A program made the position numbers and the translations under genes. From positions 9,945 through 38,339 of the forward strand of contig PLMF01000261.1 of assembly GCA_003142355.1 (NCBI GenBank): a stretch of 28,395 bases of DNA, given 5' to 3'. Origin of the DNA: Bryobacterales bacterium (GTDB lineage Bacteria > Acidobacteriota > Terriglobia > Bryobacterales > Bryobacteraceae). The notes beneath the pieces are model-generated. The model saw only the letters and a program-made list of their open reading frames with translations, did no database searches and was not told the origin of the DNA. This document shows positions 5,114 through 27,436 of the stretch, in pieces; positions within the stretch are counted from its first letter, which is position 1, and each line of letters opens with the position of its first letter.

Positions 5114-7381
5114 CTAGAACTGAACTTCCAGGCGCATGGCGGCACGAACCTTCTCCAGTTTGACTGTCGTGCTCGCCGGCCGTGGCGCAGCGTGCCCGTC
5201 GATCAGAAGCGAGTGGATGGCGCTGCCGTCTGGTAGCGGGAAACGCACGATCACATCTACCGGTTCTTGGGGCGCGTCCAAGTCGAGCACCATTTTGCCG
5301 GCGGCCGGACAGGAAAGACGGTAGGACGCGGGACCGCCAAGAAGCGCTGGAGCGTTGCGAATGGAAATCTCTTCGCCAACGCCGATCCAATCGGCGGGGA
5401 CGCCCGGGAGGATATACAGAGCTCCGTTTTGTTCGAGGAGCAGCATGTCCCGGACGAGGTTCACCAGGTTGGCGTTGGCCCAGGCTTCCGGCATGTCGCC
5501 GGTGCCCATCCGGTTGTCGAGGTTCCGGCTGTTGCCGTTCGGGCAGGTGGTCGGGATGGTTTTGTCGACCCGAATCTCCTCGCGCCAGACGTTGGTTGAA
5601 TACGAATGATTCAAGGTGGCGGCCAGGAGGTTGGCGGCCTTTCGGACGTCGCCGCGGCGGAGGTAGACTTCCGCCATATTCATGGAATTGCCGGGCCACA
5701 CGCCGCTGAAGCCCAGCCACGCCATGTTGGTGGGCAGGCCCTGGCGCATGGTGCTCTCGATGCGCGTCAACAGGCCGGTGATCAGTGGATCGTCCGGCTT
5801 GAAAAGCTCGGTGGGATAGACCGCCACGAAGCTCTGCGACCACGACGCTTCGGGCGCCGCGGGCATGGCGGGAAGGTACGGTGGCGCGCCCTGTTCGAGT
5901 TTCAGCGCGCGCTGGATCGAAGCGAAAATGGCATCGCGGTAGCTCGCGTATTCGCTGGAGAGCCAGGCGGCGTCTTCCTTGTTTCCCAGTTCGAGTGCGG
6001 CCTTGCGGGCGCACTCCACGGCGTAGAGCGCGAAAAAGTTGTGCGGGAACGCGTGGCCCTCGGGGAGTCCGCTGTCGCCATAGCTCCATGGCAGAAGCCC
6101 GGACCAGATGGGCTTTTCACCGGGCTGGAGCGGGGGCGCGGTTTCGGGCTTGCAACTCGATGGGATCTGGCGGCGGGCGGGCTTCGCGCCGGCGGGCACG
6201 TCCAGGGCTTCGAGATCGCTTTCCTCACGATGGTACCGGACCCAGCGCGCGGCAGCCAGCAGGTGCGGGTACGCGCGCGCCAGCCAGGCGCGGTCGCGCG
6301 TGAACAGGTAATACTCCCAGACGCCGGCCGCGTTGCCGCCGATGTTATCCCAGGAAGGCCAGCCGCTGATCGGGGGGCCGTCCCATTCGCCATCGTCCAT
6401 CTGAATATGGAAGGCGTGTTCGAGAGATTCCGCGGCCAGGTCGGAGCGGCCGAGCAGGTCGAGGGCGCGCGCCTGGAAATACTCGCCGCGGCCCCAGAAC
6501 TGGCGATAGCCGCCGGGGCCGTCGAGGATCCACAAATCGCCGGCGGCATCGTATTCGGTGAGGATCAGGACGTAGGCGAAGGAAGAGTAAAAGAAGTCTT
6601 CGAGCGCTTTCTGGGGAAGGTGGATCTGCGGTCCTTTGGCCCAGATGGCCTGCCACGAATCTTGCGCGCGGGCCAGCAGGGTTTCACCGCTATCGCCATC
6701 GATGGCGGATTCGTTGGCCGCGGGAAGATCGTACGGGACCTTGAGCCACAGGGTTTGGGTGGAGCCAGCGGGCACGGTCCAGCGGCACGCCAGGGTCAGC
6801 CCGTTGGCCTTGGAAACGCATGCGGGCGCCGCCGGCTGGACCAGCACGATTTCGTAGCCATCGCGCGTGACCAGGGTGTTTTGGCGGGCGTGGCCCGGCA
6901 GGTTGTAGTGCTTGCCACTCAACCGTGTTTCGAGTTCGCGGGTTCCCCCCGACCGGTTGGCGACCTGCAATCGGACCACGTCGAGGCCCTGCGTTCCGGC
7001 TTCGGCGGCAAATGCGAGTTCTTCCAGCGCCACATCTCCCGCGGTCAACTGCGTCACGACGAAGGGATAGCGGCCGCGGTAGAGGCTCTGCGGTCCGGCT
7101 TCGAGCGGTGTTTCGCGATCGCCATCGATGCGGAACGTTTGAATGTCGAGCGCGCCATCCATCTGGCCGCTGAAGCCGAAGGGCGAATCGAGCGGCCTGC
7201 GTTTCAGACTCCATTGCGACCAGCGGAGAGCGCCGTCCTTTTCGACCAGCGTCTTGTGACTGCCCATCGGCAGCCCGATGAGGCTGTGCGCATTTCGATT
7301 GGCGAATTCGTGGGTAATGACGAAAGGCTCGGCGGCGAGTGCCGGTGCGAGCGCGCATAAAAATGCAATGGTGAGTCTCAT
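5114..7381 (-). CDS. Secreted (alpha/alpha)6 six-hairpin-type glycoside hydrolase, family unassigned
   Basis: A 755-residue protein when started at the ATG at 7381, which gives a clean signal peptide (MRLTIAFLCALAPALAAEP). Residues about 20-250 are beta-rich, like the N-terminal sandwich that precedes six-hairpin glycosidase barrels. Residues about 250-650 show repeated helical pairs with conserved-looking acidic and aromatic clusters: YRQFWGRGEYFQARALDLLG, DDGEWDGPPISGWPSWDNIGGNA and GLPTNMAWLGFSGVWPGNS. The end is a short beta domain. The architecture resembles GH63/GH37/GH78-type inverting enzymes, but the substrate cannot be read from sequence. The gene is divergent from the FGE-BNR fusion gene with only 35 bases between the two starts, so the pair is probably controlled together. 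Confidence 0.75.
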   Translation of the reverse strand: MRLTIAFLCALAPALAAEPFVITHEFANRNAHSLIGLPMGSHKTLVEKDGALRWSQWSLKRRPLDSPFGFSGQMDGALDIQTFRIDGDRETPLEAGPQSLYRGRYPFVVTQLTAGDVALEELAFAAEAGTQGLDVVRLQVANRSGGTRELETRLSGKHYNLPGHARQNTLVTRDGYEIVLVQPAAPACVSKANGLTLACRWTVPAGSTQTLWLKVPYDLPAANESAIDGDSGETLLARAQDSWQAIWAKGPQIHLPQKALEDFFYSSFAYVLILTEYDAAGDLWILDGPGGYRQFWGRGEYFQARALDLLGRSDLAAESLEHAFHIQMDDGEWDGPPISGWPSWDNIGGNAAGVWEYYLFTRDRAWLARAYPHLLAAARWVRYHREESDLEALDVPAGAKPARRQIPSSCKPETAPPLQPGEKPIWSGLLPWSYGDSGLPEGHAFPHNFFALYAVECARKAALELGNKEDAAWLSSEYASYRDAIFASIQRALKLEQGAPPYLPAMPAAPEASWSQSFVAVYPTELFKPDDPLITGLLTRIESTMRQGLPTNMAWLGFSGVWPGNSMNMAEVYLRRGDVRKAANLLAATLNHSYSTNVWREEIRVDKTIPTTCPNGNSRNLDNRMGTGDMPEAWANANLVNLVRDMLLLEQNGALYILPGVPADWIGVGEEISIRNAPALLGGPASYRLSCPAAGKMVLDLDAPQEPVDVIVRFPLPDGSAIHSLLIDGHAAPRPASTTVKLEKVRAAMRLEVQF

Positions 7382-7394
7382 GGCGATTGCTGAC

Positions 7395-7406
7395 ATTATA
7401 TATATT
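7395..7406. promoter_or_regulatory. Overlapping divergent -10 boxes
   Basis: The 35-base gap between the divergent genes contains one AT-rich patch. On the minus strand TATAAT (7400-7395) lies 13 bases before the glycosidase ATG. On the plus strand TATATT (7401-7406) lies 10 bases before the ATG at 7417. Neither gene has a ribosome site, so both mRNAs would have very short leaders. The -35 boxes would fall inside the opposite coding region and are weak. Confidence 0.4.
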
Positions 7407-7416
7407 GGTTCGAGCA

Positions 7417-9681
7417 ATGAATACGTGCTGTGTTCTGGCGGCCATTTTGTGCGCGATTGCGGCAGCGCCGCCCGCCGCAACGGTGAACTCGATCGGAATG
7501 GCGATGGTACGCATCGAGCCGGGAAGTTTTCAAATGGGAGTCGATTCCGTGCCGCTGCCGAAGGAGTTGCTGAAAGGGCCGCCGGGCGTGATCTTCGACC
7601 GGCCGAGCGATGCGGGCGATTACGACGAAGCGCCGGTGCACGAGGTCGTCATCACATCGCCGTACTGGATGAGCGTTACCGAAGTCACGGTGGAACAGTA
7701 TCACCGGTTTCGGCCCGACTATCGCGGCAATCCCCACTATGCGCCGTACGCGTCGGGCGTGAGCTGGAACGACGCCGTGGCGTTTACGAAATGGCTCAGT
7801 CAGAACGAGGGGAAACCATACCGGCTGCCCACGGAGGCGGAGTGGGAATACGCGGCGCGCGCCGGCACACGCACGCCGTTTTCCTCCGGCCCGACGGCGC
7901 CGGCGGCGGAGACCGCGAACGCCTGGGGCTTGAAGAACATGCACAGCGGCGTGGCGGAGTGGTGCCTGGACTGGCACGGCCCGTATCCCAGCGGGACTCA
8001 AACCGACCCGGTGGGCCCCGCGTCCGGCATCGCCAAGATCGTGCGCGGCGGCGGCCTGGATTATCGCGCGTCGAAGACCGATGGAGGCAAGTTTCTGCCG
8101 GCGGAGACACCCTACTATGCGCGCTCGGCGAACCGGGCCAGCATGGCGCCCGATTTCGCGTCCGCCGGCCATGGCATCGGATTTCACGTGGTGCAGGCTG
8201 CCATGCCCGGCGCCAAACCGTTGCCGTACGAGCCGCCGCTTATGCAACTGGCGGTGAAGCAGAGCACGCCACCCGACATCCGGCGCGGGCCCGACCCGGC
8301 CAAGCCGTATTACTACACGCGCCCGCTGTTCCCGGACCTGGGCGATCGCACGATGCGGACGGTTGGCTGGAAGATCGGCTTGAAGCCCGGGCTCGGCATC
8401 GCGTATCACAATTCGGCCGTGCAGGCGCTGCCGAACGGCGATCTGCTGGCGGCCTATTACAACACTCCGAAGGAGGAGAACGATCCGGATCAGACGATTC
8501 TCACCATGCGGCTGCGCTATGGTGCGGAGGATTGGGACAGGCCGGAACCCTGGCCGGATTTTGCGGATGCCGCCGATGCGGCGCCGGTAATCTGGAACGA
8601 CCATGGCAAGATCTGGTTCTTTTGGGGATCGCCGCGGCTGCTCGGAGGCCCGCCGTTCCAGTACATGACGTCCACCGACAACGGCGCGACCTGGAGCGCG
8701 GTGGAACTGCCGAAACTCACGGGCACGGTTGGCAAGTTTACGCCGCAGCCGATCAATAGCGTGGTGCGCGGAACCGACGGCACGATCTACTTACCGGTTG
8801 ACGGAGCGGGCAGCACCTCGGTTCTGTTTGCGTCGAAGGATGAAGGCCAGTCGTGGTACGATACCGGAGGCCGCACGGCGGGCCGGCACACCACCGTGGT
8901 ACTGGGCCAGGATGGATCGCTGATCGGATTCGGCGGGAAGAATTCGGAGATCGATGGCTTCATGCCCAAAGCCATCAGTCAGAATGGCGGCAAAACCTGG
9001 GAGAAATCGAAGACTCCGTTCCGGCCCTTGGGCAGCGGGCAGCGTCCCAGCGTGGTCCGGCTGGCTTCCGGGCGCTTGTTCTTCGTGGCCGACCTGTTCG
9101 ACAAGAAGAAGCTCGGCCCCAACGGCGCGGGTGCATTTGTCGCTGTGAGCGATGACGATGGCGCCACCTGGAAGACGCGGCAGCTTCCCGGCTTGGTCAC
9201 GGTGGGATACACCACCGCCACGCAGGCGCCGAATGGCGTCATTCACATCGTGACTTCGAAGAACAAACCGGATCTGCACATTGAGCTGAATGAAGCCTGG
9301 GTGCTGGAAGGGGGACCGACGACGCCGGCGGCCTCCGATCCGCGTGACGTGCGCGAGTTTCGCGAGACGTATCGCAACGGAAAAGTCAGGGTGACATGGA
9401 GCGCGGGCGTTGCTTCCGACGGCCGGTACGTTCTCCAAGGCCGGCAGACCTTTTATTGCGAGAACGGCCAGAAGCAGTGGGAAACCACGTTCCAGAGCGG
9501 CCGGCGAATCGGGTTGGAGACCTGGTGGAGCGACACTGGCCGCAAACTATGGGAGCGCACCTTCTCGCCCGGCGATGTCTGGACGTGGCGGATCTACGAT
9601 GGCGCGGGCCGCGAGTCAGCCGAGTCGCGATGGAAGAGCAAAGAGTTGATGGAAGCCAACCCGGAAGGCCCCCTCAGGTGA
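7417..9681 (+). CDS. Secreted fusion: FGE-sulfatase-like domain + BNR sialidase-like domain + MORN-like repeats
   Basis: A 754-residue protein with an N-terminal signal sequence (MNTCCVLAAILCAIAAAPPA). Residues about 25-260 match the formylglycine-generating-enzyme fold: MVRIEPGSFQMG, SVTEVTVEQY, RLPTEAEWEYAARAGT and KIVRGGG. The C-terminal cysteine pair used for catalysis in true FGEs is absent (PYYARSANRASMAPD), so this domain is probably a binding or structural one. Residues about 295-630 form a sialidase-like beta propeller with four Asp boxes: TSTDNGATW, ASKDEGQSW, ISQNGGKTW and VSDDDGATW. Residues about 645-745 carry short repeats of the YRNGK / YCENGQKQWE / WWSDTGRKLWE type resembling MORN_2 repeats. 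It may bind or cleave a glycan in the periplasm or outside the cell. Confidence 0.8.
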   Translation: MNTCCVLAAILCAIAAAPPAATVNSIGMAMVRIEPGSFQMGVDSVPLPKELLKGPPGVIFDRPSDAGDYDEAPVHEVVITSPYWMSVTEVTVEQYHRFRPDYRGNPHYAPYASGVSWNDAVAFTKWLSQNEGKPYRLPTEAEWEYAARAGTRTPFSSGPTAPAAETANAWGLKNMHSGVAEWCLDWHGPYPSGTQTDPVGPASGIAKIVRGGGLDYRASKTDGGKFLPAETPYYARSANRASMAPDFASAGHGIGFHVVQAAMPGAKPLPYEPPLMQLAVKQSTPPDIRRGPDPAKPYYYTRPLFPDLGDRTMRTVGWKIGLKPGLGIAYHNSAVQALPNGDLLAAYYNTPKEENDPDQTILTMRLRYGAEDWDRPEPWPDFADAADAAPVIWNDHGKIWFFWGSPRLLGGPPFQYMTSTDNGATWSAVELPKLTGTVGKFTPQPINSVVRGTDGTIYLPVDGAGSTSVLFASKDEGQSWYDTGGRTAGRHTTVVLGQDGSLIGFGGKNSEIDGFMPKAISQNGGKTWEKSKTPFRPLGSGQRPSVVRLASGRLFFVADLFDKKKLGPNGAGAFVAVSDDDGATWKTRQLPGLVTVGYTTATQAPNGVIHIVTSKNKPDLHIELNEAWVLEGGPTTPAASDPRDVREFRETYRNGKVRVTWSAGVASDGRYVLQGRQTFYCENGQKQWETTFQSGRRIGLETWWSDTGRKLWERTFSPGDVWTWRIYDGAGRESAESRWKSKELMEANPEGPLR

Positions 9682-9703: not shown

Positions 9704-9828
9704 TTAGCCCACGGCGTGAGCCGTGGGAGAATTGCGAGATCCACCAAGCCCCCGGAGGGGGCGAAAGAACGTTCTTCCGCCCCCTCCGGGGGCTACCCCG
9801 GTTGCCCACCAGTCCCACGGCTTGCGCC
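9704..9828. repeat. Palindromic intergenic repeat, copy A
   Basis: This copy starts with TTAGCCCACGGC and runs into a 108-base stretch (9721-9828) that recurs at 11176-11283 with one difference (G9801 versus A11256). Its core at about 9747-9796 is a near-perfect 48-base palindrome: arms of 17 bases (AGCCCCCGGAGGGGGCG and its complement) around AAGAACGTTCTT, with one mismatched pair. It follows the FGE-BNR gene by 22 bases, with no T-run, so it is not a classical terminator. The last 10 bases (9819-9828) are the left target duplication of the insertion element. Confidence 0.85.
9819..9828. repeat. Left target-site duplication of the IS element
   Basis: GGCTTGCGCC here is repeated exactly at 11168-11177. 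Removing the IS and one copy restores a continuous tandem repeat, which confirms that this is an insertion scar. Confidence 0.88.
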
Positions 9829-9866
9829 GAATATGCGTTAACCTAAGGCTTGCCTTCGCTCTGAAA
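9829..9866. repeat. Left terminal inverted repeat of the IS element
   Basis: Begins GAATATGCGTTAACCTAAGG and pairs with the right end at 11130-11167. There is a four-base mismatched block after the first 20 bases, then CGCTCTGAA is shared by both ends. Confidence 0.9.
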
Positions 9867-9884
9867 CTAGCGTATGCTGTTGCT

Positions 9885-11142
9885 GTGACGAACTTGACGG
9901 AGCGCACTGCGGTACTGGACAGTTGGGGAATCCTATGCACGTTCCTGCCAGAGGATTGGGTTGATCAGGCATGGGAACTCGGCGTAATGCAGCGGGCACG
10001 CTATATCAAGGATCCAGCGGTCGTGCTCCGGTTGCTGCTCATGCATGTTGGGGCCGGTTGCTCGCTGGCGGAGACCGCCGCGCGCTGCCGGGCGGCTGGA
10101 TTGGCGCAGATCAGTTCGGTGGGCGTGTTTAAGAGACTGCGTGCCGCGGAGCCGTGGTTTCGCTGGCTAGCCCTGCAGATGCGAGGGGCAACCACGTTGC
10201 CCCTGCAACTGCTGGGGCGCCGCCTTCGCGCCGTGGATGCAACGTCGGTTCACGAACCCGGAACAACGGGAACTGACTGGAAACTCCACTATTGCGTGAA
10301 TTTGGGCGATCTGCACTGCGATTTTTTTCAACTTACCGATATCCGGGAAGGAGGCGAGACGTTTCGGCGCGTGCCCGTCGTGCCTGGCGACGTTCTGATG
10401 GGAGACCGTGTTTACGCAGCGCCGCCCGGCGTGTCGCATGTCGTGAGCCGGGGAGGCGACGTGATCGTCCGGCTGAATCGTGCGGCCCTGCCGTTGTATG
10501 AACCGAGTGGCGAGCGCATAGAGTTACTGCCCCGTTTGCGCCAACTGGGGGAAAAGCCGCGCGAGTATCAGGCGCATGTCAAGGACCCGCGCGGAGGTTG
10601 GATTCATGGCCGGTTACTCGCTCTGCGGCAGAGCGTAGAAGCGACCCGATGGGCGCAGAAGCGGATGCAGCGCCGCGCCCAGCGCAGCCAAGAGACGGTC
10701 TCCCGTGAATCGTTGGAATGCGCGGAGTATTTCATGGTGTGGTCAACGTTACCTGCTGCGGTGCCCACCGCGCAAATACTGGAGTTCTACCGATTGCGTT
10801 GGCAAATCGAGTTGGTTTTCAAACGCATGAAATCGATATTAGGCGTTGGCCATTTGCCCAAGAAGGACCCCCTCAGTGCGCAGGCTTGGCTGGAGGGAAA
10901 ACTGTTTGTGGGCTTGCTGATCGAGCGCATGATCCACACTGCAGAAGCTATTTCCCCCTGGGGCTACACCTTGGCAGCCTCGCCGCAGCCGCTGGCGCGA
11001 GGTTGAGTTTCTTTACAGACAAGTCGGCGCTGCGCTCCTGACACCCCAGGACCTCTCGACCGTCCTTGACAACTGGGATGCGATCACCAAGGTTCTCGCG
11101 GAACCGCACCGAAGGCGGCGTCGCTTCAATTTCAGAGCGTAG
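9885..11142 (+). pseudogene. IS4-family DDE transposase, frameshifted near the C-terminus
   Basis: The reading frame starts at a GTG (9885) inside the element; an open frame further left only runs into the flanking repeat. It is open for 373 residues to a TGA at 11004-11006. DDE residues fit Asp118 (RAVDATS), Asp174 (LMGDRVY) and Glu309 in the IS4 signature YRLRWQIELVFKRMK (Y-x2-R-x3-E-x6-K). After SPWGYTLAAS the family-like sequence continues in the +1 frame as RRSRWREVEFLYRQVG and then to RRRRRFNFRA with a TAG at 11140-11142, inside the right terminal repeat. So one extra base (or two lost bases) around 10955-10990, possibly in the CCCCC run at about 10956-10960, removes about 50 C-terminal residues. 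The catalytic core is whole, but activity is doubtful. Confidence 0.85.
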
Positions 11143-11580: not shown

Positions 11581-11657
11581 TGGTCGGGGCGGGGCGATTT
11601 GAACGCCCGACCCCCTGCGCCCAAGGCAGGTGCGCTACCAGGCTGCGCTACGCCCCG
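11581..11657 (-). tRNA. tRNA-Pro (anticodon UGG), CCA encoded
   Basis: Read on the minus strand, a full cloverleaf is present. The acceptor arms are CGGGGCG (11657-11651) and CGCCCCG (11591-11585). The D arm contains AGCCTGGTAG. The anticodon stem CCTGC/GCAGG encloses the loop CTTGGGC with anticodon TGG, and the T arm is GGGCG-TTCAAAT-CGCCC. Discriminator A (11584) is followed by encoded CCA (11583-11581), giving 77 bases. The UGG anticodon decodes proline CCA/CCG-type codons. A TATAGA box at 11674-11669 on the same strand, 11 bases before the 5' end, is a plausible -10. Confidence 0.95.
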
Positions 11658-11853: not shown

Positions 11854-13098
11854 ATGAAGATAGTGGATATCCGGGCGACCACTGTCACGGTTCCGCTGGA
11901 GGCGCCGTTGCGCCATGCCAACGGCTGCCACTGGGGCCGTTTTGTACGAACCATCGTGGAAGTGGAGACCGACAACGGTCTGGTTGGGCTGGGTGAGATG
12001 GGCGGGGGCGGGGAATCGGCCGAGGCCGCATTCCGCGCCATAAAATCTTACCTGGTGGGGCACGATCCGGCGCGCCTCGAGGAGATGCGCTTCCTCATCG
12101 CCAATCCAACGGCCTCACTTTACAATAACCGGACCCAGATCCTGGCCGCCCTGGAATTTGCGTGCCTCGACATTCTGGGGCAAGCCTGGGGCGTCCCGGT
12201 GTGTGAGATCCTGGGCGGACGCCTGCGCGACCGCGTGCCGTTTGCCGCCTACTGCTTTTTTCGGTATCCGGATCCGCGCACGGGCGGCGGTGAAGTGCGC
12301 ACCATCGACCAACTGGTGGAACATGCCGGCTCGCTCAAGCGGCGCTTCGGCTTTACCACCCATAAACTGAAGGCCGGGGTCTTCCCCCCGGACTATGAGC
12401 TCGAGGCGTATCGCGCCCTGGCCGCCGCTTTTCCCCAAGATTCGTTGCGATTCGATCCCAACGCCGTCTGGTCCACCGAACAGGCCATTCGTTTCGGACA
12501 GGCCATCGAGGGGTTGCGCAACGACTATCTGGAGGATCCGGTCTTCGGCCTCAACGGCATGCGGCGCACGCGCCAGATGGTGCGGATTCCGCTCGCCACC
12601 AATACCGTGGTGGTCAACTTCGAGCAACTCGCCGCCAATGCGCTCGACACGGCGGTGGACGTGATTCTCCTCGACACTACCTTTTGGGGCGGAATCCGGG
12701 CCTGTGTAAAGGCCGCCGCGGTGTGCGAGACGTTCCAACTGGGCGTCGCCGTTCACTCATCGGGCGAGCTGGGCATCCAACTGGCAACCATGCTGCATCT
12801 GGGCGCGGTTCTTCCGAACCTTTCGTTCGCAGCCGATGCCCACTACCATCATTTGACGGACGACATCATTGAAGGCGGCCCGATGCCATACGAAAACGGC
12901 GCCATCCGCGTTCCCGACAAGCCAGGGTTGGGCGTCAGGCTCGACCGCGACAAGCTCCGCCGGTACAGCGAACTCTACCAGCGGCTGGGGAGCTATCCAT
13001 ACGACCAGGATCCGGGGCGGCCCGGCTGGACCCCAATTGTTCCCAACGACCGGTGGGCCGATCCGAAAGATGGCCGGCCGGTGCGGATTCCCTACTGA
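11854..13098 (+). CDS. Enolase-superfamily dehydratase, glucarate dehydratase type
   Basis: A 414-residue cytoplasmic protein with the two-domain enolase-superfamily plan. Residues 1-130 are the capping domain and the rest is the barrel. Active-site motifs match the glucarate dehydratase subgroup: K171-L-K173 (HKLKAG), metal ligands Asp201 (RFDPN), Glu227 (YLEDPV) and Asn250 (LATNT), and a dyad of Asp274 ([10 protein letters not shown]) and His301 (VHSSGELG). These enzymes remove water from aldarates, giving 5-keto-4-deoxyglucarate from D-glucarate. Being one base upstream of an alpha-glucuronidase gene suggests it acts on acid derived from (methyl)glucuronic acid of xylan. The uronate dehydrogenase that would make glucarate is not in the window, so the exact substrate is open. 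Confidence 0.8.
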
Positions 13099-13099
13099 C

Positions 13100-15607
13100 A
13101 TGCGACGCTACCTGAATTGGACACTTTTGAGCCTGTTAGCGGCCGGCGGCCTTCACGCCGAAACCGGCCGCGCCGCCTGGTTGCGATACGCGGCGCTGGG
13201 CGATGGCTCCGCCCGGCAGTACCGCGAGACCGTACCGGCGGTGGTCACGAGGCTGGGCGACGCCGCTCCCCTGGAGAGCGCACGGCAGGAATTGACCCTC
13301 GGCATCCGCGGCATGCTCGGCAGGACGCTCCGCGTGGATTCCCGTGTGCCCGCCGAATCCGCCATCGTGCTCGGCACGCTGGGCGCGATTCGGCAGGCCT
13401 TTCCTCAGTTCGATGCCGCGGCCAAGCTGGAGCCGGACGGATATTGGCTCAAGACTCTGCGCGCCGGCGCCACCCGCTACACCGTTGTCACCGCGGCCAA
13501 CGATCGCGGCGTCCTCTACGGCGCATTCGCGCTTCTGCGGAAGATCGCTCTGGGGGAGCCGGTGGGCGACCTCGATGAGAAGCAATCGCCCTTCGCTCCC
13601 GCCCGGTGGATCAACCAGTGGGACAATCTGGATGGCTCCATCGAGCGCGGCTATGGCGGCCGCTCCATTTTCTGGGAGAACGACCACGTGCGCGAGGACC
13701 TCACCCGCGCCGGCGAGTACGGCCGCCTGCTGGCGTCGGTCGGCATCAATGGCTGCTCCATCGACAACGTCAACGCCAACCCGCGCGTCCTGGCCTCCGA
13801 CTTCCTCCCGCAGGTGGCGCGCGTAGCCGCGGCTTTCCGCCCCTGGGGCGTCCAGGTGGTGCTTTCGGTCGATTTCGGAAGTCCCCAAAGTGTCGGCGGT
13901 CTGCTTACCTTCGACCCGCTCGACCAGCGCGTGGCCGCATGGTGGAAATCCAAAACCGACGAGATCTACCGCGCTGTCCCAGACCTGGCGGGCTTCGTCC
14001 TGAAGGCGGATTCCGAGGGCCGCGTGGGACCGTCGGCCTACGGAAGAACCCACGCGGATGCCGCCAACGTGGTGGCTCGCGCGCTGAAGCCGCACGGCGG
14101 TCTTCTCTTTTACCGCGGCTTTGTCTACGACCACCACATGGACTGGCGCAATCCCAAGAACGATCGCGCCCGCGCCGCTTACGACAACTTCAAGGAACTC
14201 GACGGCAAATTCGACGACAACGTCGTCATTCAGATCAAGCACGGTCCCATCGATTTCCAGGTGCGCGAGGCCACGTCCCCGCTGTTTGGCGCGCTCGAAA
14301 AGACCAACTAGGCGATTGAATTGCAGATCACCCAGGAGTACATGGGACAGGCCCGGCATACCGTCTTTCTGGTTCCCATGTGGAAAGAGACGCTCGATTT
14401 CGACATGCACATCACCGATACCCCGGCACCCGTCAAGGCGCTGGTGGCCGGCAAAGTCTTCCACCGGCCTGCCGGCGGTTTCGTGGGGGTCGCCAACGTG
14501 GGGCTCGACGACAACTGGGCGGGCAATCACCTTTCGATGGCGAATCTCTACGGCTTCGCCCGGCTGGCGTGGGACCCCGATCTGAGCACCCGGCGCCTGG
14601 CCGAAGAATGGACGCGCCTCACCTTCGGAGACGATCCCAAAGTGGCCGAGACCGTCGTTGGCATCGAACTCAGCTCGTGGCGCACCTATGAGAACTACAC
14701 TGGGCCGCTCGGGCTGCAGAATCTCACCGATATCGCCGGCGATCACTACGGAGTCGCCGTGGAAGCCTCCGAGCGCAACGGTTGGGGACAGTGGCACAAC
14801 GCCGACGAGAAGGGCGCCGGCATGGACCGCACCGTGGCCACCGGCACTGGTTACATCGGCCAGTACCGCCCCGCCGTGGCCAGCCTGTACGAATCGCTGG
14901 CTGCCTGTCCGGATGACTTGCTGCTGTTCCTGCACCACGTTCCCTACACTTACAAGCTGCACTCCGGCCAGACCGTCATCCAATACATTTACGATTCGCA
15001 CTACCAGGGAGCGGACGCCGTCGCGGGATACGCGAGCGCCTGGAAGCCGCTCCAGGGGCGGGTGGACGACCAGCGGTACGGCGAAGTGCTGGCGCAACTC
15101 GAGTATCAAGCCGGCCAGGCCCAGGTGTGGCGCGACGCCGTCACCATGTGGTTTCTGCGCGCCTCCGGCATCCCCGATGCCAAGGGCCGCGTGGGTCGCT
15201 ACCCGGGCCGTTTCGAGGCGGAGTCGATGACGCTCGAGGGCTACACCGTCAAGGATGTCGTGCCCTGGGAAGCCGCTTCCGGCGGAAAAGCGGCCGTATG
15301 CGCGGCGCAATGCGCGGCCACTCTGCGTTTCGACGGCGCGCCCGGCTGGTATACGCTCCACGTCCAGTATTTCGACCTGCCCGCCGGCGTCTCCCGCTTT
15401 CGAGTGCTGGTGGCGAACCAGGTGGTCGATGAATGGGCCGCCGCCGACCATCTGCCGGCGCGGAAAATCGACGCGTCCGCCTCAGTGCGGCGCGTCATCC
15501 CCGGCATCTCTCTGCGTGCGGGGGATGAGATCCGCATCGAAGGTGTGCCCGATGGCGGCGATCCCGCGGCGCTCGATTACATCGAAATCCTATCGGATGT
15601 GCGATGA
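13100..15607 (+). pseudogene. Secreted GH67 alpha-glucuronidase interrupted by an in-frame TAG
   Basis: Family GH67 cuts (4-O-methyl)glucuronic acid from the non-reducing end of xylo-oligosaccharides. The ATG at 13100 (one base after the dehydratase stop, so coupled) gives a signal peptide (MRRYLNWTLLSLLAAGGLHA), which is unusual for the often intracellular family. The catalytic acid fits Glu306 (KADSEG); Asp362 and Glu390 (DFQVREA) are 28 residues apart, like the known GH67 pair. Codon 404 is TAG (14309-14311), between EKTN and AIELQITQEY, a run that is continuous in family members. The same frame then stays open for 431 codons with the GH67 C-terminal domain and an extra, probably carbohydrate-binding beta domain (about residues 700-835, FEAESMTLEGY onward). 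All else is intact, so this is a fresh nonsense mutation, a sequencing error or readthrough. Confidence 0.88.
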
Positions 15608-15613
15608 AGCAAT

Positions 15614-16939
15614 TCATCGCTTGGATATGCCGCGGGTGAATTCTCCATGGGGCCGGAATTCGCCGCCATTCAGGATGATGCCGAGCACCTCCTTGGAACG
15701 CGAATCATAGGCGCCTTGCTTTTCGGGCGTAATGTTGTTGTGGTCGGATTCAGCCATGGGGATGACCTCCTTGAGACCGGGGACTTGGTTGACGGCTGTC
15801 CAGATGCCGGCTGGCGGCGCGATGGTGTCAATGAAGCCCACAGCGGCCAGAACGGGGGCTTTGATGCGAGAAGCGAAATTGACGGTATCGAAGTAGAGGG
15901 CCGTCTCCATGACCTTAGGATTGTTCGAGGGCCAGTTCGGGTAGCCTGCCTTGCGGCCGTGCAGATCGCCGTTGGAGTCGGCGCCAGCGGGTTCGTTCAC
16001 AATGACGGCGGTCACCTTGGGATTGAGGCCGGCAGCGGCGAGGCTTTGCTGGCCGCCCATGCTGACGCCCGTGACGACGATCGTTTTGCCGTCCCAGTCC
16101 GGGCGGCTCGCAATGTAATCGATGGCGCGCGAGTCGCGTAGATACATGTTGAGAAAGTAAGACGTTTCCCTATCGGTATTGCCTATCGACGCGTAGTTCG
16201 CGCTTACGCCGGCCGCCTCGCTGGGTGGGATGTCGTGCGAATCCACGTCGAAGGCCAGCCAGCCCTCCGCCGCGCGCTCCGTGACCGTGTTTGGCTGGAG
16301 GGCATACACGCCGGCATACTGAAAAATAACGAGGGCCGGTAACTTGCCTTCCTTGCCCGGTTTTGCGAGGTAGCCCTGGACGTGCGAGCCAAGGCTGTCA
16401 AGCTTCACGGTGTACAATTCCACGCCGGCCTTGTTGGTTTCGGCGGGTGCCAGGACGGGATTGATGGGAATTTCGCCCAGGGCCTTCAGTTTGGCTTCCC
16501 AAAAAGCGTCAAAATCGGCCGGGCGCGGGACCGACGGCTGCAACTTCCATGGCGCGATCGCCGCACCGAGAGCCATCGTGGGGACGTTGCCGACAGTTGG
16601 CACGTCCGGCCTCGTGGGCCGCCCCGGTGCTGTTGGCGAGGCGCTGACTTGGACGTAGAGCATGGCCGGTTCACTGAGCGTGGCTTCAATGGTAGCGCTG
16701 CCGGATGAAGCGTCGATGACGCCAGTCTTGACGATGTCGAGATTGTTTCTCTTGATTACGTAGGAGTAGTTGCCGGTGGCGGCGGCGTCCTGCGGGAGCG
16801 TCACAGTCCAACCGGCTCTTTCGCCGAGATCGTAAATCCCGCTCTTGTTAAACGGCGTGAAGCTCAACTGCTGAGCTCTGGCCGGTAACGCCGCAAGAAC
16901 CAGCGCGAGGCCGGCGGCGGACAAACGAGTTCTTGTCAA
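15614..16939 (-). CDS. Secreted acetyl-xylan esterase-like alpha/beta hydrolase (CE7/AXE1 type)
   Basis: A 441-residue protein with a signal peptide (cleavage near ARAQQ). Residues about 25-105 form an N-terminal beta domain; residues about 135-430 are an AXE1-type hydrolase. The catalytic triad is Ser293 (GVSMGGQQ), Asp371 (GFIDTIAPP) and His400 (SDHNN). CE7 enzymes remove acetyl groups from xylan and xylo-oligosaccharides. The start appears to be TTG at 16939: stops lie in frame just upstream and no ATG fits, and there is no ribosome site. It is convergent with the GH67 gene (6 bases between stops) and divergent from the CE15-SGNH gene (33 bases between starts), so its strand breaks the locus into two transcription units. 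Confidence 0.85.
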   Translation of the reverse strand: MTRTRLSAAGLALVLAALPARAQQLSFTPFNKSGIYDLGERAGWTVTLPQDAAATGNYSYVIKRNNLDIVKTGVIDASSGSATIEATLSEPAMLYVQVSASPTAPGRPTRPDVPTVGNVPTMALGAAIAPWKLQPSVPRPADFDAFWEAKLKALGEIPINPVLAPAETNKAGVELYTVKLDSLGSHVQGYLAKPGKEGKLPALVIFQYAGVYALQPNTVTERAAEGWLAFDVDSHDIPPSEAAGVSANYASIGNTDRETSYFLNMYLRDSRAIDYIASRPDWDGKTIVVTGVSMGGQQSLAAAGLNPKVTAVIVNEPAGADSNGDLHGRKAGYPNWPSNNPKVMETALYFDTVNFASRIKAPVLAAVGFIDTIAPPAGIWTAVNQVPGLKEVIPMAESDHNNITPEKQGAYDSRSKEVLGIILNGGEFRPHGEFTRGISKR

Positions 16940-16972
16940 GACAACAGAATACCATTACCCTCAAATACAAGT

Positions 16973-19150
16973 ATGAAACTCACAAAGCGTTTGCTGGTTG
17001 CTTCATTCGGTTCCTGCGCGGTTGCGCTGGTGGCGGTTTTGTCGGCTGCCGGCCTGCTTGGCCAGCGAGCCCCGGCGCCGCTGGCGGCTGCGGCGCCGAC
17101 CACCGCCGAAGATCATCGGAACATGATGGATCAGCTTGGCATCAAGGCGCTCCGTCCAGGTCCCAGCGGTAACGAGGCGGCGCCCAATCATGCCAACTAC
17201 GACGAGTCCAGGGCCAATCCTTTCCCGAACTTGCCCGATCCCCTGACGCTGAAGAACGGCAAGAAAGTCACCACGGCGCAAATGTGGTGGGTCGAGCGCC
17301 GCCCTGAGATCGTGGAGGATTTCGAGCGAGAGGTGGTTGGCCGTGTTCCCAAGAACGTGCCCAAAGTGACCTGGACGGTCACCGGCACGGTCAACGGGAC
17401 GCTCGGTTCATATCCGATCGTCACCAGGCAACTCGTGGGACATGTGGATAATTCTTCGTACCCGGCGATCAGCGTCGATATCCGATTGACGTTGGTGACG
17501 CCGTCGAATGCGCGCGGCCCGGTTCCGGTGATGATGATGTTCGGTTTTGGCGGCATCCCTCCCGCGTCGCCCCCTGGCGGCGACCCGCCCGCCACTGAAC
17601 AACTGATCGCCGATGGCTGGGGTTATGCCACCATCGTCCCCGCCAGTATTCAAGCCGACAGCGGCGCGGGCTTGACCAAGGGCATCATCGGCCTGGTCAA
17701 CCAGGGCCAACCCCGCAAGCCCGATGATTGGGGCGCTTTGCGAGCCTGGGCCTGGGGCGCCGGCCGGGCTTTGGACTATCTGGAAACCGATCCGGCGGTG
17801 GACGCCAAACACGTCGGCATCGAAGGTGTTTCGCGTTACGGCAAGGCTGCCCTCGTGACCATGGCGTTCGACCCCCGCTTTGCTCTTGTTCTGGTCGGTT
17901 CTTCCGGCGAGGGCGGCGCCAAACTGCATCGCCGCAATTGGGGGGAAGCGGTGGAGAACCTCACGGGGTCGGGTGGATACCACTGGATGGCCGGCAACTT
18001 CCTGAAGTACGGCGCCGCGGAAGCCACTTTCGGCAGCAGGAACGCCGGCGACCTGCCTGTGGACGCTCACGAGCTGATCGCGTTGTGCGCGCCGCGACCG
18101 ACCTTTATCAGCTACGGCGTGCCGGAGAAGGGCGACGCGAAGTGGCTGGACCACCAGGGCAGCTATATGGCCGCCGTCGCCGCCGGGCCGGTATTCAGGC
18201 TCTTGGGCGCCAGAGACTTGGGGACATCGGATGACTATCGCATCGAGAAAATGCCGCCGGTCAATGTGGGCATGCTCGACGGCCAACTTGCCTGGCGCCA
18301 GCATGACGGCGGACACACTGATGGTCCGAACTGGAAGTACTTCATCCCGTGGGCCGATAGGTTCATCCAACACGCAGGGCCGCCCGCCTCGGTGCCGGCC
18401 GATCAACCCGTTTCCCGAACCGACCAAAACTCTCTGACCGCCCATGCCCAGTTGTTGGAAAAAGCCAGGAAGGGCCGCATCGACATCTATTTTGAGGGCG
18501 ACTCCATTACCCGCCGCTGGGGGGCTACCGATTATCCGGATTTGCTGGCCAATTGGAACCAGAACTTCTTCGGCTGGAATGCGGCAGATTTCGGATGGGG
18601 CGCCGATACCATTCAAAACATCCTTTGGCGCCTCAACAATGGGGAACTGGACGGAGTCAATCCGAAGATCATCGTTCTGCTTGCCGGAACCAATAACGTC
18701 GGCAATGTCGTCTCCCCTGGCGGCAATGAGGCCAAAGCGGCGGACGTCACCAGGGGCATCCAGGCCATATTAAGAATCATGGAGACGAAGGCCCCCGGCG
18801 CCACCATTGTCCTGATGGGCATTTTCCCTCGCAACGACAATATGGCAGTGATGCCGGCGATCGATAAGATCAACAACAATCTCTCCAAACTCGCCGATGG
18901 CAAAAAGATCCGGCATCTCAACGTAAATGACAAGCTGGCCGACCAGGACGGCAAGCTGTTCGACGGCATGATGAACGCCGGCGACAAGCTCCATCCCACG
19001 ATCCAGGGCTACCAGGTCTGGGCAGATGCGTTGAAGCCCATTTTCAGAGAACTGCTCGGTCCTCCCGGGGCCGAGGACCACGCTCCGCCGCCTCTCCCTT
19101 CCAAGAACCGCGGGGAGATTGTGGGCGGATTCCGCGCCCTGGTGCATTGA
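16973..19150 (+). CDS. Secreted bifunctional esterase: CE15 glucuronoyl esterase + SGNH/GDSL hydrolase
   Basis: A 725-residue protein with an N-terminal signal peptide. Residues about 60-470 match CE15 glucuronoyl esterase: nucleophile Ser287 in GVSRYGKAA, Glu313 in GSSGEGG, and a histidine (444 or 448) in QHDGGHTDG. CE15 cuts ester bonds between lignin alcohols and methylglucuronic acid on xylan. Residues about 490-705 are an SGNH hydrolase: block I FEGDSITRRWG with Ser511, block III LAGTNN, and block V DKLHPT with Asp671 and His674. That domain resembles acetyl-hydrolases acting on xylan or acetylated sugars. A short linker (about 470-490) joins them. The start has no ribosome site; a TACCCT box lies 11 bases upstream. 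Confidence 0.88.
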   Translation: MKLTKRLLVASFGSCAVALVAVLSAAGLLGQRAPAPLAAAAPTTAEDHRNMMDQLGIKALRPGPSGNEAAPNHANYDESRANPFPNLPDPLTLKNGKKVTTAQMWWVERRPEIVEDFEREVVGRVPKNVPKVTWTVTGTVNGTLGSYPIVTRQLVGHVDNSSYPAISVDIRLTLVTPSNARGPVPVMMMFGFGGIPPASPPGGDPPATEQLIADGWGYATIVPASIQADSGAGLTKGIIGLVNQGQPRKPDDWGALRAWAWGAGRALDYLETDPAVDAKHVGIEGVSRYGKAALVTMAFDPRFALVLVGSSGEGGAKLHRRNWGEAVENLTGSGGYHWMAGNFLKYGAAEATFGSRNAGDLPVDAHELIALCAPRPTFISYGVPEKGDAKWLDHQGSYMAAVAAGPVFRLLGARDLGTSDDYRIEKMPPVNVGMLDGQLAWRQHDGGHTDGPNWKYFIPWADRFIQHAGPPASVPADQPVSRTDQNSLTAHAQLLEKARKGRIDIYFEGDSITRRWGATDYPDLLANWNQNFFGWNAADFGWGADTIQNILWRLNNGELDGVNPKIIVLLAGTNNVGNVVSPGGNEAKAADVTRGIQAILRIMETKAPGATIVLMGIFPRNDNMAVMPAIDKINNNLSKLADGKKIRHLNVNDKLADQDGKLFDGMMNAGDKLHPTIQGYQVWADALKPIFRELLGPPGAEDHAPPPLPSKNRGEIVGGFRALVH

Positions 19151-22892: not shown

Positions 22893-24375
22893 GCCCCAGA
22901 AGCTGTCTTTTATCGAAAAGGCGGGCTACAGCCTGGGTGACGCCGCCGCCAACTTCGTCTTCCAGACGATGATCCTCTTCCAGTTGAGTTTCTACACGGA
23001 CACGTTAGGGATCATGGCCGCGGCGGCGGGGACGCTCCTGCTGGTGGGGCGGCTGTGGGACGCCTTTTTCGATCCGATGATGGGCGTGATGGCCGACCGC
23101 ACCAAGACGCGCTGGGGAAAGTTCCGCCCGTGGGTGCTGTGGACGGCGATACCGTGGGGCGTGGTCCTGGTTCTGGCCTATACGACTCCCGACTGGGGAG
23201 TGACGGGCAAACTGTTCTACGCGTGCCTGACCAACATCCTTCTGATGACGCTGTATTCGGCCAATAACACGCCCTATTCGGCGATGACCGGCGTGATGAC
23301 CGGCGACGTCCATGAACGCACCAGCCTGTCGTCGTATCGCTTCGTGGCCGCCCTGATTGCGCAGCTTATTGTCGGCGGCTTCACGCTGCCACTGGTCGCG
23401 AAGTTCGGGCAGGGCAACAATGCCAAGGGCTGGCAGATGACCATGGCGTTGTGGGCGACGATTGGCGTGGTTTTCTTCGTCATCACGTTCCTTACCACTC
23501 GCGAACGCATCCAACCCGACCCGAAGCAGAAGGTGTCCGCCAGACTGGATTTCGGCGATCTGCTCAAGAACGGGCCCTGGATCGCGATGTTCATACTCAC
23601 GGTGTCCCACTTCCTCGTCCTGGCCATGAGGGGCGGCACCATGTTTTACTATTTTCGGTATTACGTCAACCAGGACCGTTTGTTCGACCTTCTTCAGTCT
23701 TTGGGCCTGACCCGCGGAGCGAGCGGGACCGTTCCCGCTGGAATATGGCACTACTTACTGAATACCTTCGGCTTGATTGTGGATGCGGCCAATACGAATG
23801 TGTCTTCCGTGGGGTTCAGCCTGTTCAACATGTCGAGCCTGTTCGTCACGCTCCTTGGTGTGCTCTGCTCGACGTTTTTGTCGATCCGGTTTGGCAAGAA
23901 AGCTGTTGCGCTTGCCGGTTTCTCAATGACGACGATATTCATGGCCTCATTTGTTCTGCTGCCGCCCAACGCCATCGGGACGATGTTCATTCTGGAGTAT
24001 TTTCGCGTTCTGACCTATGGCCCCACGGTTCCCCTGATTTGGGCCATGTTTGCCGATGTGGTGGATTACGCCGAATGGAAAACCGGCCGCCGCACCACCG
24101 GAGTAATCTACGCCACCATTTTGTTCGGCCTCAAAGCCGGTTTGAGCCTGGGTGGCGCGATCACCGGATGGCTTCTCTCCGGCTACGGTTACCGGGCCAA
24201 CGTGGCTCAGACGCCCGGGGCGTTGCTGGGCATTCGCTTGACAATGAGTGTCTATCCAGCCATGTTTTTCCTGGTCGTGATTGTTTGCCTGACCTGCTAC
24301 AAGATTGGTAAGAGGCTGAATATCCAGATACAGGACGAGCTGGCCGAGCGGCGGAAGGGGTTTGCGACTAGTTAG
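22882..24375 (+). CDS. GPH-family glycoside-pentoside-hexuronide:cation symporter (MFS)
   Basis: A 497-residue inner-membrane transporter with about twelve hydrophobic segments. It begins with the GPH hallmark GYSLGDAAANFVFQTMILFQ region and the loop DPMMGVMADRTKTRWGKFRPW, typical of MelB/XylT/XynB-like symporters that bring in sugars with Na+ or H+. The loop around residues 265-310 (LGLTRGASGTVPAGIWHYL) is long for the family. Its ATG lies inside the GH3 gene with a GAAGG ribosome site (22868-22872), so both are translated from one mRNA. It probably imports xylobiose or short xylo-oligosaccharides for the GH3 enzyme; aldouronic acids are another possibility. Confidence 0.9.
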   Translation: MSAKPQKLSFIEKAGYSLGDAAANFVFQTMILFQLSFYTDTLGIMAAAAGTLLLVGRLWDAFFDPMMGVMADRTKTRWGKFRPWVLWTAIPWGVVLVLAYTTPDWGVTGKLFYACLTNILLMTLYSANNTPYSAMTGVMTGDVHERTSLSSYRFVAALIAQLIVGGFTLPLVAKFGQGNNAKGWQMTMALWATIGVVFFVITFLTTRERIQPDPKQKVSARLDFGDLLKNGPWIAMFILTVSHFLVLAMRGGTMFYYFRYYVNQDRLFDLLQSLGLTRGASGTVPAGIWHYLLNTFGLIVDAANTNVSSVGFSLFNMSSLFVTLLGVLCSTFLSIRFGKKAVALAGFSMTTIFMASFVLLPPNAIGTMFILEYFRVLTYGPTVPLIWAMFADVVDYAEWKTGRRTTGVIYATILFGLKAGLSLGGAITGWLLSGYGYRANVAQTPGALLGIRLTMSVYPAMFFLVVIVCLTCYKIGKRLNIQIQDELAERRKGFATS

Positions 24376-24413
24376 TGAGCGTAGTAGAATGCAGTGCGCG
24401 CGGTCGGCAGGTT

Positions 24414-24502
24414 GTGGGGCGGGCAATCCTGCCCGCAGGCCGGCCTTCCGGCCGGCTGGACCCGCTGGAAAGCGGGTCGGTAGGCTGAAAAGCCTGCCCC
24501 AC
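24414..24502. repeat. Multi-hairpin intergenic repeat
   Basis: Four consecutive hairpins are present: GGGC-AATCCT-GCCC, GCCGG-CCTT-CCGGC, ACCCGCT-GGAA-AGCGGGT and AGGCT-GAAA-AGCCT. They are enclosed by an outer pair GTGGGGC (24414-24420) and GCCCCAC (24496-24502), so the single strand could fold into a multi-branched structure. It lies between the symporter stop and the GH115 start, 31 bases before the latter. Its form suggests a dispersed REP-like element, but only one copy is in this window. Confidence 0.7.
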
Positions 24503-24532
24503 ATCGGCTCAGTAGTCGGGGGATCGAGGAGT

Positions 24533-27436
24533 ATGTCTCTGAAAGCGGCAGCGTTGGGAAGATCGGTTCTGTTCATCATTGTTTGCCTTCTTACTCTCCC
24601 ATGCGACGGTTTCGCCCTCGGCCAGGTTCCGTATGTGCAGGGGATTTACGTCCAGGGCGGTTTCACAATCGTGCAGGGAAAGATGGCCGCGCCGGTTTAT
24701 GTCGATCGCAACGACTATGCCGGCGTCGTTCGCGCTGTCCACGATCTCGAAGCGGATATTGCTCGTGTCACGGGCTGCACTCCGGCGGTTGTTCACGATG
24801 AGAAGGGTCTTGGAGGGAACGTCATCATCGCCGGCACAATCGGAAAGAGCCAGCTTGTCGACCGGTTGATCCGCGAAGGGAAACTGGATGTCACCCGGAT
24901 CGCGGGCAAGTGGGAATCGTTTCTGGTCCAGGTTGTGCCAAGGCCATTGCCGGGCGTGGCCAGCGGGTTGATCATCGCGGGAAGCGATAAGCGAGGAACC
25001 ATTTACGGTATCTACGATCTCTCCGAACAGATTGGAGTGTCGCCGTGGTACTGGTGGGCGGACGTGCCCGTCGCGCATAAAGACGCCCTCTTCGTGAAGC
25101 CGGGGAAATACGTGCAAGGGGAACCCGCGGTCAAGTATCGCGGCATCTTTTTGAACGACGAAGCACCGGCGCTTTCCGGCTGGACGAAGGAGAAATTCGG
25201 CGGTTTCAACCATGAATTCTACGTGAAGGTCTTCGAACTTCTGCTGCGGTTGAAGGGCAACTACCTCTGGCCCGCGATGTGGGGCAACGCGTTCAGCGAG
25301 GATGATCCGCTCAATTCCCAGCTCGCGGACGAATATGGCATCGTCATGGGAACTTCGCATCACGAGCCGATGCTGAGGGCGCAGCAGGAGTGGAAGCGGC
25401 ACGGCGAGGGTCCGTGGAACTACAACACCAACGCCGCGATCCTGCGCGCGTTTTGGGAAGAAGGCATTCAGCGCAATAAGAGTTACGAGAGCATCGTTAC
25501 GGTCGGCATGCGCGGCGATGGCGACTTGCCCATGGCGGCGGCCGACGATATGCCCGCGAATATTGCGTTGCTGGAAAGAGTCGTGGCCGATCAGCGGGCG
25601 ATCCTGGCGAAGGATGTCAAGCCGAAGTTGCCGGAGGTTCCGCAACTCTGGGCGCTCTACAAAGAAGTGCAGGAATACTACGACAAGGGAATGCGCGTCC
25701 CCGACGATGTGACTTTGCTGTGGTGCGACGACAACTGGGGCAACATTCGCCGTCTGCCCACCGGGGAGGAACGGAAGAGAAGCGGCGGCGCCGGGGTCTA
25801 TTATCACTTCGACTACGTGGGCGGCCCCCGCAATTACAAGTGGCTCAATACCAACCCCATCGCCAAGGTATGGGAGCAGATGAATCTGGCCCTCCAGTAC
25901 GACGCCAAACGGATCTGGATTGTGAACGTCGGCGACCTCAAGCCGATGGAGTTCCCCATCGAGTTCTTCCTGGATTTCGCCCGCGATCCGCAAAGGTGGC
26001 CAAAGGAAAGAGTATCGGAATTCACCAGGCTGTGGGCGGAACGGGAATTCGGACCCGCTCCCGCCGTGGAAATCGCGGACATTGTCTCCAAATACACGAA
26101 ATACAACGGCAGGCGCAAACCGGAACTCCTCGATCCAGCCACGTTCAGCCTCCAGAATTATAACGAAGCGGATACCGTGCTGGCCGGCTGGAAAGCGATC
26201 GCGGACAAGGCGGAGCGCATCTACCGCGGCTTGCCCGAGAACACCAAGGACGCGTTTTTCGAGCTGGTTCTCTTTCCCACCAAAGCTTCCTTCCAGGTGA
26301 GTGAACTCTACATCACCGCCGGGAAGAACCGATGGTATGCCGGACAGGGCCGCGCCAGCGCAAACGATCTGGCCGCACGGGCGAAGGGGCTGTTTCAGGC
26401 CGATGCGGATCTGTCGGATTCCTACAATCACACTTTGGCCCATGGCAAGTGGGACCACATGATGGACCAGACGCACATCGGTTACACGTATTGGCAAGAG
26501 CCGCCCACGAACACGATGCCGAGTGTCACGGAGATCGAGGTTCCGGAAGCGGCGGAAATGGGCGTCGCCATAGAGGGTTCCGCCGCCGCCTGGCCGGGGG
26601 CGCGGGATGAGCCGGTTCTGCCGGAATTCGACGCATACAATCGACCGCGACGGTACATCGACGTGTTTAACCGTGGACGCGCGCCGTTCGAGTTCTCGGC
26701 TACGGCCAGCGCCCCCTGGATCGTTCTGAGCACAGTGCGAGGGAAAGTTGAGAAGGAACAGCGCATTTGGGTGAACATAGATTGGCGCCAGGCGCCCCAA
26801 AGACCAGGTAATGGATATATTCGGATCGCCCGTGGCGGCGGCGATTCGGTGACGGTGAAGGTCAGCGCATTCAATCCGCCAAAACCCACGCGATCTACTC
26901 TGAAGGGCTTCGTCGAAGCAGATGGTTACGTATCCATCGAGGCGGAGCATTACACAAAGAAGATCGATGCCGGTACGGTCCGGTGGGAGAAGATTGAGGG
27001 TTTCGGGCGGACCCTCTCGGGCATGGCGGTATTTCCCGTTACCGCGAAGAGCGTGACCCCGCCGCGGGATTCTCCTTGTCTCGAATATCAAATGTACTTA
27101 TTCCATCCGGGGAGAATTGAAGTCGAGGCGATTATCGCTCCGACATTGAACTTTGTTCCCGGCCGGGGCCTTCGCTTCGCGGTTTCCTTTGACGACCAGC
27201 CGCCCCAGACGGTCGATGCGCTGGCGCAGAACTCGCAAAGCGACTGGGAGGAATCCGTGAAGGACAGCGTTCGCAAAGTCAAATCCACTCACACGCTGGC
27301 AAAGTCCGGCTATCACACGCTGAAATTCTGGATGGTCGATCCCAGCCTGGTGCTGGAGAAACTCGTCGTAAACCTGGGCGGCGTGAAACCCAGCTATCTT
27401 GGCCCGCCTGAAAGCTATCGCGGTGGCGGCCAATGA
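24533..27436 (+). CDS. Secreted GH115 xylan alpha-1,2-glucuronidase
   Basis: A 967-residue protein starting at the ATG at 24533, which has a GAGGAG ribosome site and a signal peptide (hydrophobic SVLFIIVCLLTLPC). The GH115 plan is visible: an N-terminal alpha/beta domain (GGNVIIAGT, DKRGTIYGIYDLSEQIG), a barrel with YRGIFLNDEAPALSGW near residue 200, GTSHHEPMLRAQQEW (His276, His277, Glu278) and WCDDNWGNIRRLP, a helical domain, and a C-terminal beta domain starting near GYVSIEAEHYTK. GH115 enzymes release 4-O-methylglucuronic acid from internal and terminal xylose units of polymeric xylan, complementing GH67, which acts only on terminal ones. It is separated from the symporter by the multi-hairpin repeat and may have its own promoter. 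Confidence 0.93.
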   Translation: MSLKAAALGRSVLFIIVCLLTLPCDGFALGQVPYVQGIYVQGGFTIVQGKMAAPVYVDRNDYAGVVRAVHDLEADIARVTGCTPAVVHDEKGLGGNVIIAGTIGKSQLVDRLIREGKLDVTRIAGKWESFLVQVVPRPLPGVASGLIIAGSDKRGTIYGIYDLSEQIGVSPWYWWADVPVAHKDALFVKPGKYVQGEPAVKYRGIFLNDEAPALSGWTKEKFGGFNHEFYVKVFELLLRLKGNYLWPAMWGNAFSEDDPLNSQLADEYGIVMGTSHHEPMLRAQQEWKRHGEGPWNYNTNAAILRAFWEEGIQRNKSYESIVTVGMRGDGDLPMAAADDMPANIALLERVVADQRAILAKDVKPKLPEVPQLWALYKEVQEYYDKGMRVPDDVTLLWCDDNWGNIRRLPTGEERKRSGGAGVYYHFDYVGGPRNYKWLNTNPIAKVWEQMNLALQYDAKRIWIVNVGDLKPMEFPIEFFLDFARDPQRWPKERVSEFTRLWAEREFGPAPAVEIADIVSKYTKYNGRRKPELLDPATFSLQNYNEADTVLAGWKAIADKAERIYRGLPENTKDAFFELVLFPTKASFQVSELYITAGKNRWYAGQGRASANDLAARAKGLFQADADLSDSYNHTLAHGKWDHMMDQTHIGYTYWQEPPTNTMPSVTEIEVPEAAEMGVAIEGSAAAWPGARDEPVLPEFDAYNRPRRYIDVFNRGRAPFEFSATASAPWIVLSTVRGKVEKEQRIWVNIDWRQAPQRPGNGYIRIARGGGDSVTVKVSAFNPPKPTRSTLKGFVEADGYVSIEAEHYTKKIDAGTVRWEKIEGFGRTLSGMAVFPVTAKSVTPPRDSPCLEYQMYLFHPGRIEVEAIIAPTLNFVPGRGLRFAVSFDDQPPQTVDALAQNSQSDWEESVKDSVRKVKSTHTLAKSGYHTLKFWMVDPSLVLEKLVVNLGGVKPSYLGPPESYRGGGQ

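Follow-up and report, generated by a model that had tools for sequence, protein, structure and literature searches.

An in-frame amber codon within the catalytic domain of a conserved GH67 alpha-glucuronidase frame from a Bryobacteraceae-like acidobacterium

A single amber codon interrupts the frame of a xylan-degrading enzyme, a GH67 alpha-glucuronidase, within a 28,395-nucleotide stretch of DNA from a soil acidobacterium (hereafter the window). The pattern goes beyond chance, since nothing of the frame is missing before or after this TAG and relatives carry a sense codon at all 40 loci that span the position. Comparison of the sequences suggests that GH67 has probably been inactivated, in one lineage of a Bryobacteraceae-like acidobacterium, by a nonsense mutation of recent date, C to T within a CCAGG site.

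The GH67 frame and its internal stop

The GH67 frame (13100-15607, plus strand, 835 codons) begins with ATG at 13100, directly 3' of the stop of the upstream gene, and ends with TGA at 15605-15607. As the earlier note reported, TAG occupies 14309-14311 (plus strand), codon 404, where the nearest species has CAG (Gln); it is the sole internal stop, and because of it GH67 is not one uninterrupted protein under translation table 11. The 403 codons that precede the stop (13100-14308, plus strand) encode the N domain and most of the middle domain, including E306 and D385, and match Pfam GH67N together with positions 4-256 of the 326 in GH67M. The remainder (14312-15607, plus strand) encodes the end of the middle domain with E407 and E413, the C domain, a C-terminal extension and the terminal TGA, and matches GH67M 259-326 and GH67C in the same frame as the 5' part. 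The division of the GH67M match on either side of the stop means that the catalytic middle domain itself is cut. When the stop is read as X, the N, M and C domains follow in one order and one frame, which bears out the earlier claim that both sides are in the same frame. Codon style is likewise unchanged across the TAG, as had been stated, with GC by codon position of 0.687/0.476/0.824 before and 0.689/0.462/0.805 after. A 771-codon open frame on the minus strand (13136-15451) runs antisense through nearly the whole of the gene and is probably incidental to its G+C-rich codon use.

The best solved relatives of the frame were Geobacillus AguA chains (E 3.5e-207). Counting along the alignment, AguA E285 and D364 correspond to E306 and D385 of the window, before the stop, and AguA E386 and E392 to E407 and E413, after it; all 130 full-length homologues share these four window residues without exception. 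We take E285, D364 and E392 of AguA to be its catalytic residues. The earlier note had placed all catalytic residues before the stop, which the alignment contradicts: the active-site acids E407 and E413 lie downstream of the TAG, and neither piece is therefore a complete enzyme. The frame resembles AguA (PDB 1k9d and others) in the order of its N, middle and C domains, and reading through the stop recovers all four active-site acids that we checked. It differs in being interrupted at codon 404, between D385 and E407/E413, and in continuing for ∼138 residues past the point where the AguA match ends (residue 697 of 835).

Codon 404 in relatives and the age of the stop

A search with the 5' half of GH67 found 41 genome loci, with DNA spanning codon 404 in 40 of them. 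All 40 have a sense codon there (CAG 23, CAA 2, GAA 7, GAG 3, others 5) and none has a stop. The nearest species with available DNA, the Bryobacterales MAG fen_178 (locus L001 in genome G001; 89% protein and 91% nucleotide identity), has CAG. The surrounding context is CCAGG at 20 of the 25 loci with Gln, whereas the window reads CTAGG. A single C-to-T change from CAG, as proposed earlier, thus fits the TAG, and intact orthologues carry a codon one step from the stop, as they would for a recent nonsense allele.

Amber hotspots in E. coli lacI lie at CCAGG methylation sites. The likeness to the present case is the C-to-T change at the inner C of CCAGG, which converts CAG to TAG, although CCWGG methylation is only hypothetical here. 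A search of G001 for a CCWGG methylase gave one cytosine-5 methylase match, which exceeded the cut-off of the general model but fell far below the cut-off of the PRK10458 DNA cytosine methylase subfamily. Counts of CTAGG and CCAGG were close to expectation.

Protein databases were searched with the whole protein (7998 candidates scored, the best 120 of 7954 listed) and with the two halves of GH67 apart, the best 120 proteins being listed for each. Among the 332 proteins that aligned at codon 404, of 360 from the three listings, the residue was Q in 234, E in 70 and another in 28; the position is not invariant and, as these alignments show, tolerates change. Called proteins cannot contain a stop, and the 332 were therefore dropped as evidence against a stop at codon 404. 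Identity among the proteins listed reached 88% for the 5' half and 91% for the 3' half, and none listed for either half was marked as encoded by the window.

The 5'-half list was limited to lengths of ∼222-705 residues, which left out full-length relatives, and in 5 of its 120 proteins the GH67 match ends at codons 390-410. These five (P0148, P0171, P0189, P0194 and P0240) are 62-68% identical to the window. P0148 and P0240 continue beyond the match with ∼30 unrelated, frameshift-like residues, and P0171, P0189 and P0194 end no more than about ten residues past it, as at a contig end. P0135 leaves the family frame near codon 398 with an unrelated tail like those of P0148 and P0240; the exits of the three fall near codons 398-403, with termination ∼30 residues later, and P0240 is encoded on a 1.9 Mb contig. 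Exits of this type are either frameshift errors or real breaks. In a further few called GH67 proteins the match ends at codons 413-440, followed by unrelated tails. In the 3'-half list, 18 of 120 proteins begin at codons 395-430. Disrupted or cut GH67 genes therefore do occur near codon 404, but none of these proteins comes from a near relative and ends in a stop as that of the window does. The expectation that relatives have one continuous protein here thus held at all 40 loci, but not for some distant GH67 genes, which are broken by frameshift-like breaks or deletion rather than by a stop.

A GH67 match was present in 83 of the 237 genomes of the family to which G001 belongs. After re-alignment of 87 GH67 stretches, 12 of the 83 genomes were excluded on manual inspection because contig ends truncate the gene, and 71 were judged evaluable. 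A premature in-frame stop in GH67 was found in none of these 71, so such alleles are not common in the family. The stop seen in L033 falls at window codon 45 within a badly aligned N-terminal stretch, and those in L147 and G011:C150 lie at the gene end and are probably the natural terminator. GH67 looks broken in 5 of the 71 genomes. Two of the breaks coincide exactly with N runs, and the remaining three are clean deletions or an abrupt junction; in G003, the residues around codon 404 itself are lost in a clean 42-residue deletion. Two loci, L095 and L097, show clean deletions without N runs (about 42 and 85 residues) over active-site residues, which are either real losses or misassemblies. 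None of the 237 genomes is closer to the window than 91% nucleotide identity.

We then asked how far the window gene has decayed. Relative to L001, dN/dS is 0.2225 before the stop and 0.2152 after it. Of 257 columns that are conserved in 97% or more of 130 homologues, the window deviates at 1 of 134 before the stop and 1 of 123 after, and 46 of the 130 homologues deviate at as many or more. The branch leading to the window is similar in length for the two halves (0.0705 for the 5' half, 0.0607 for the 3' half) and within the range of its neighbours, and the share of it that could have been unconstrained is at most about 9%, a rough bound that crudely assigns half of the synonymous distance to L001 to the window branch. 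Polarised nonsynonymous and synonymous changes numbered 34:28 in the window lineage and 21:34 in that of L001, a difference that is not significant (p 0.095), with 106 more differing positions either unpolarisable or fitting neither lineage; the excess of amino-acid changes in the window lineage falls in the 5' half (p 0.075) and not in the 3' half (p 0.79). With both halves constrained and the conserved columns almost untouched, the stop is either very young or not real. A recent nonsense allele would show just such slight decay beyond its stop.

Explanations for the amber codon

The main rival of our preferred explanation, a recent nonsense mutation, is that the contig consensus is wrong at one base, or that the assembler fixed a variant from a minority strain, and that the real gene is intact. 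We regard this as a serious possibility, though clearly the less probable of the two. It would give the same picture as a real mutation, a single substitution with all else intact and constrained, and the nearest relatives are themselves metagenome assemblies with flawed GH67 genes. Their flaws are however gaps, deletions and frame changes rather than in-frame stops, and natural mutation, too, produces transitions at CCAGG. Pfam matches across the window reveal no other clear break, a weak test because several window genes match their families incompletely (histidine phosphatase, sulfatase-modifying factor, symporter) and 5114-7480 has no match.

The remaining explanations accept the TAG and differ in how it is read. 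Reassignment of TAG to an amino acid in the window's genome, for which only the sense-like context of codon 404 speaks, was rejected and is strongly disfavoured. Five other predicted window genes terminate in TAG, their coordinates (1869, 2637, 5114, 20371 and 24373) matching those given earlier; the ROK regulator gene has identical last residues and TAG in the window and L001; and matches to RF1 (prfA) pass the curated threshold in 54 of 61 genomes of the family, G001 among them. Genome-wide recoding is thus unlikely, as the earlier note had held. Leaky reading of UAG by a near-cognate or suppressor tRNA, making some full-length enzyme with the stop as a dosage reducer, is unlikely too. Stops within bacterial genes have been suggested to play such a role generally, and TAG/CAG exchanges of this kind are described (PMC7918605); the tolerance of position 404 for many residues and the apparent constraint on the 3' half are in keeping with it. 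That constraint is equally explained by a young stop, however, and TAG is a normal terminator here, with RF1 present in relatives. No locus of the 40 shares the stop, and the 100 nt from the stop fold no better than shuffles (z 0.31, against 0.27 for intact L001), on which grounds we rejected conserved or programmed readthrough. The only tRNA in the window is for proline, and no suppressor tRNA was seen there. A more specific version, in which low-level readthrough would supply a reduced GH67 dose beside GH115, as a short-lived dosage switch at a mutation-prone CCAGG, is if anything slightly less probable still.

It is very improbable that the two pieces form a two-part enzyme, the 3' half restarting at TTG 14321 or ATG 14342 and assembling with the 5' half. 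The in-frame ATG at 14342-14344 (plus strand) is preceded by CAGGAG, with AGGAG 3 bases upstream, and is a possible but unlikely restart; the same stretch is conserved coding sequence, made up of ordinary codons, in intact L001. Each piece matches its own Pfam parts, and in some of the distant relatives at 62-68% identity the GH67 match ends at codons 402-403, but these shortened proteins resemble contig ends or frameshifts. A conserved two-part enzyme was rejected because the split falls inside the catalytic domain, the frame is continuous at 40 of 40 loci and the restart bases occur in an intact gene. Of the four options that the earlier note left standing, nonsense mutation and base error fit everything, whereas conserved readthrough and a natural two-part enzyme lost support from the 40 loci, the RNA fold and the restart bases in L001. 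The amber codon in this conserved enzyme gene most likely reflects an ordinary nonsense mutation or an error at a single base, and no novel mode of decoding.

Belinky et al. 2021 (PMC7918605) describe such in-frame stops in bulk. The window resembles those cases in the pairing of TAG with CAG, in constraint on both sides and in being apparently short-lived. The focus described there is on stops shared by at least two species, which limits artefacts, whereas the window stop is in a single sequence.

The glucuronoxylan cluster and consequences of the stop

GH67 lies in a glucuronoxylan cluster that comprises genes for a sugar-acid dehydratase-like protein, GH67, an acetyl xylan esterase-like protein, a glucuronoyl-esterase-like protein with SGNH, ROK, GH3, a GPH-type symporter and GH115. 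The enolase-superfamily dehydratase-like gene just upstream (11854-13098, plus strand) is 95.7% identical in L001, where it has the same position, and its spacing suggests that it is probably co-transcribed with GH67. Downstream, the acetyl xylan esterase-like gene (15614-16939) is on the minus strand, which makes GH67 the last gene of its run, and its truncation should therefore not silence others. An IS4-family transposase (9723-11006), above its NCBIfam cut-off, lies just upstream of the cluster, with tRNA-Pro (11581-11657) near it.

Over 15592-19111 the cluster also differs in the placement of its SGNH/GDSL domain. In the nearest relatives (P0001-P0016, P0018 and L001) this domain is fused to the GH67 C terminus. 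In the window an SGNH domain (18383-19111), 87% identical, sits on the glucuronoyl-esterase-like gene (16973-19150, plus strand), with the reversed acetyl xylan esterase gene in between; P0017 also lacks the GH67-SGNH fusion. As the tree nests the window among fused forms, the SGNH domain may have changed its fusion partner through an insertion or recombination of ∼2.8 kb.

A GH115 alpha-glucuronidase gene with full-length Pfam domains (24362-27436, plus strand) lies ∼9 kb downstream of GH67, and GH115, whose family takes glucuronate off polymer and oligomers, is a possible functional backup. In PMC4870768, GH67 is described as acting only on oligosaccharide ends and the GH115 studied as acting on both polymer and oligomers, and passages of PMC3879575 are similar. 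Across the family, GH115 at E 1e-50 or better was found in 22 of 237 genomes, 18 of which also have GH67, and was not found in the draft genome G001, the nearest relative. Four of the five genomes with broken GH67 have GH115 (Fisher 0.006, 71 evaluable). We rejected this link, as two of the five breaks lie on N runs and the other three are also explicable by misassembly; in the control, the neighbouring dehydratase gene, a split was seen in G082, which likewise has GH115.

If the nonsense mutation is real, the inner C of CCAGG became T, and the glutamine codon at position 404 became TAG. RF1 would then end translation at the UAG, leaving a 403-residue product without the end of the catalytic domain, E407, E413 or the C domain, which is predicted to be inactive. 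The loss might be tolerated because GH67 is last in its run and GH115 is nearby, and the gene would be either a pseudogene of very recent origin or a null allele that is segregating. No general idea is changed by the GH67 amber codon, but it calls for caution in annotation, since the two half-genes would be mistaken for distinct enzymes, each truncated. A real mutation would capture gene loss at its first step, in a cluster for glucuronoxylan degradation that also contains a second alpha-glucuronidase family.
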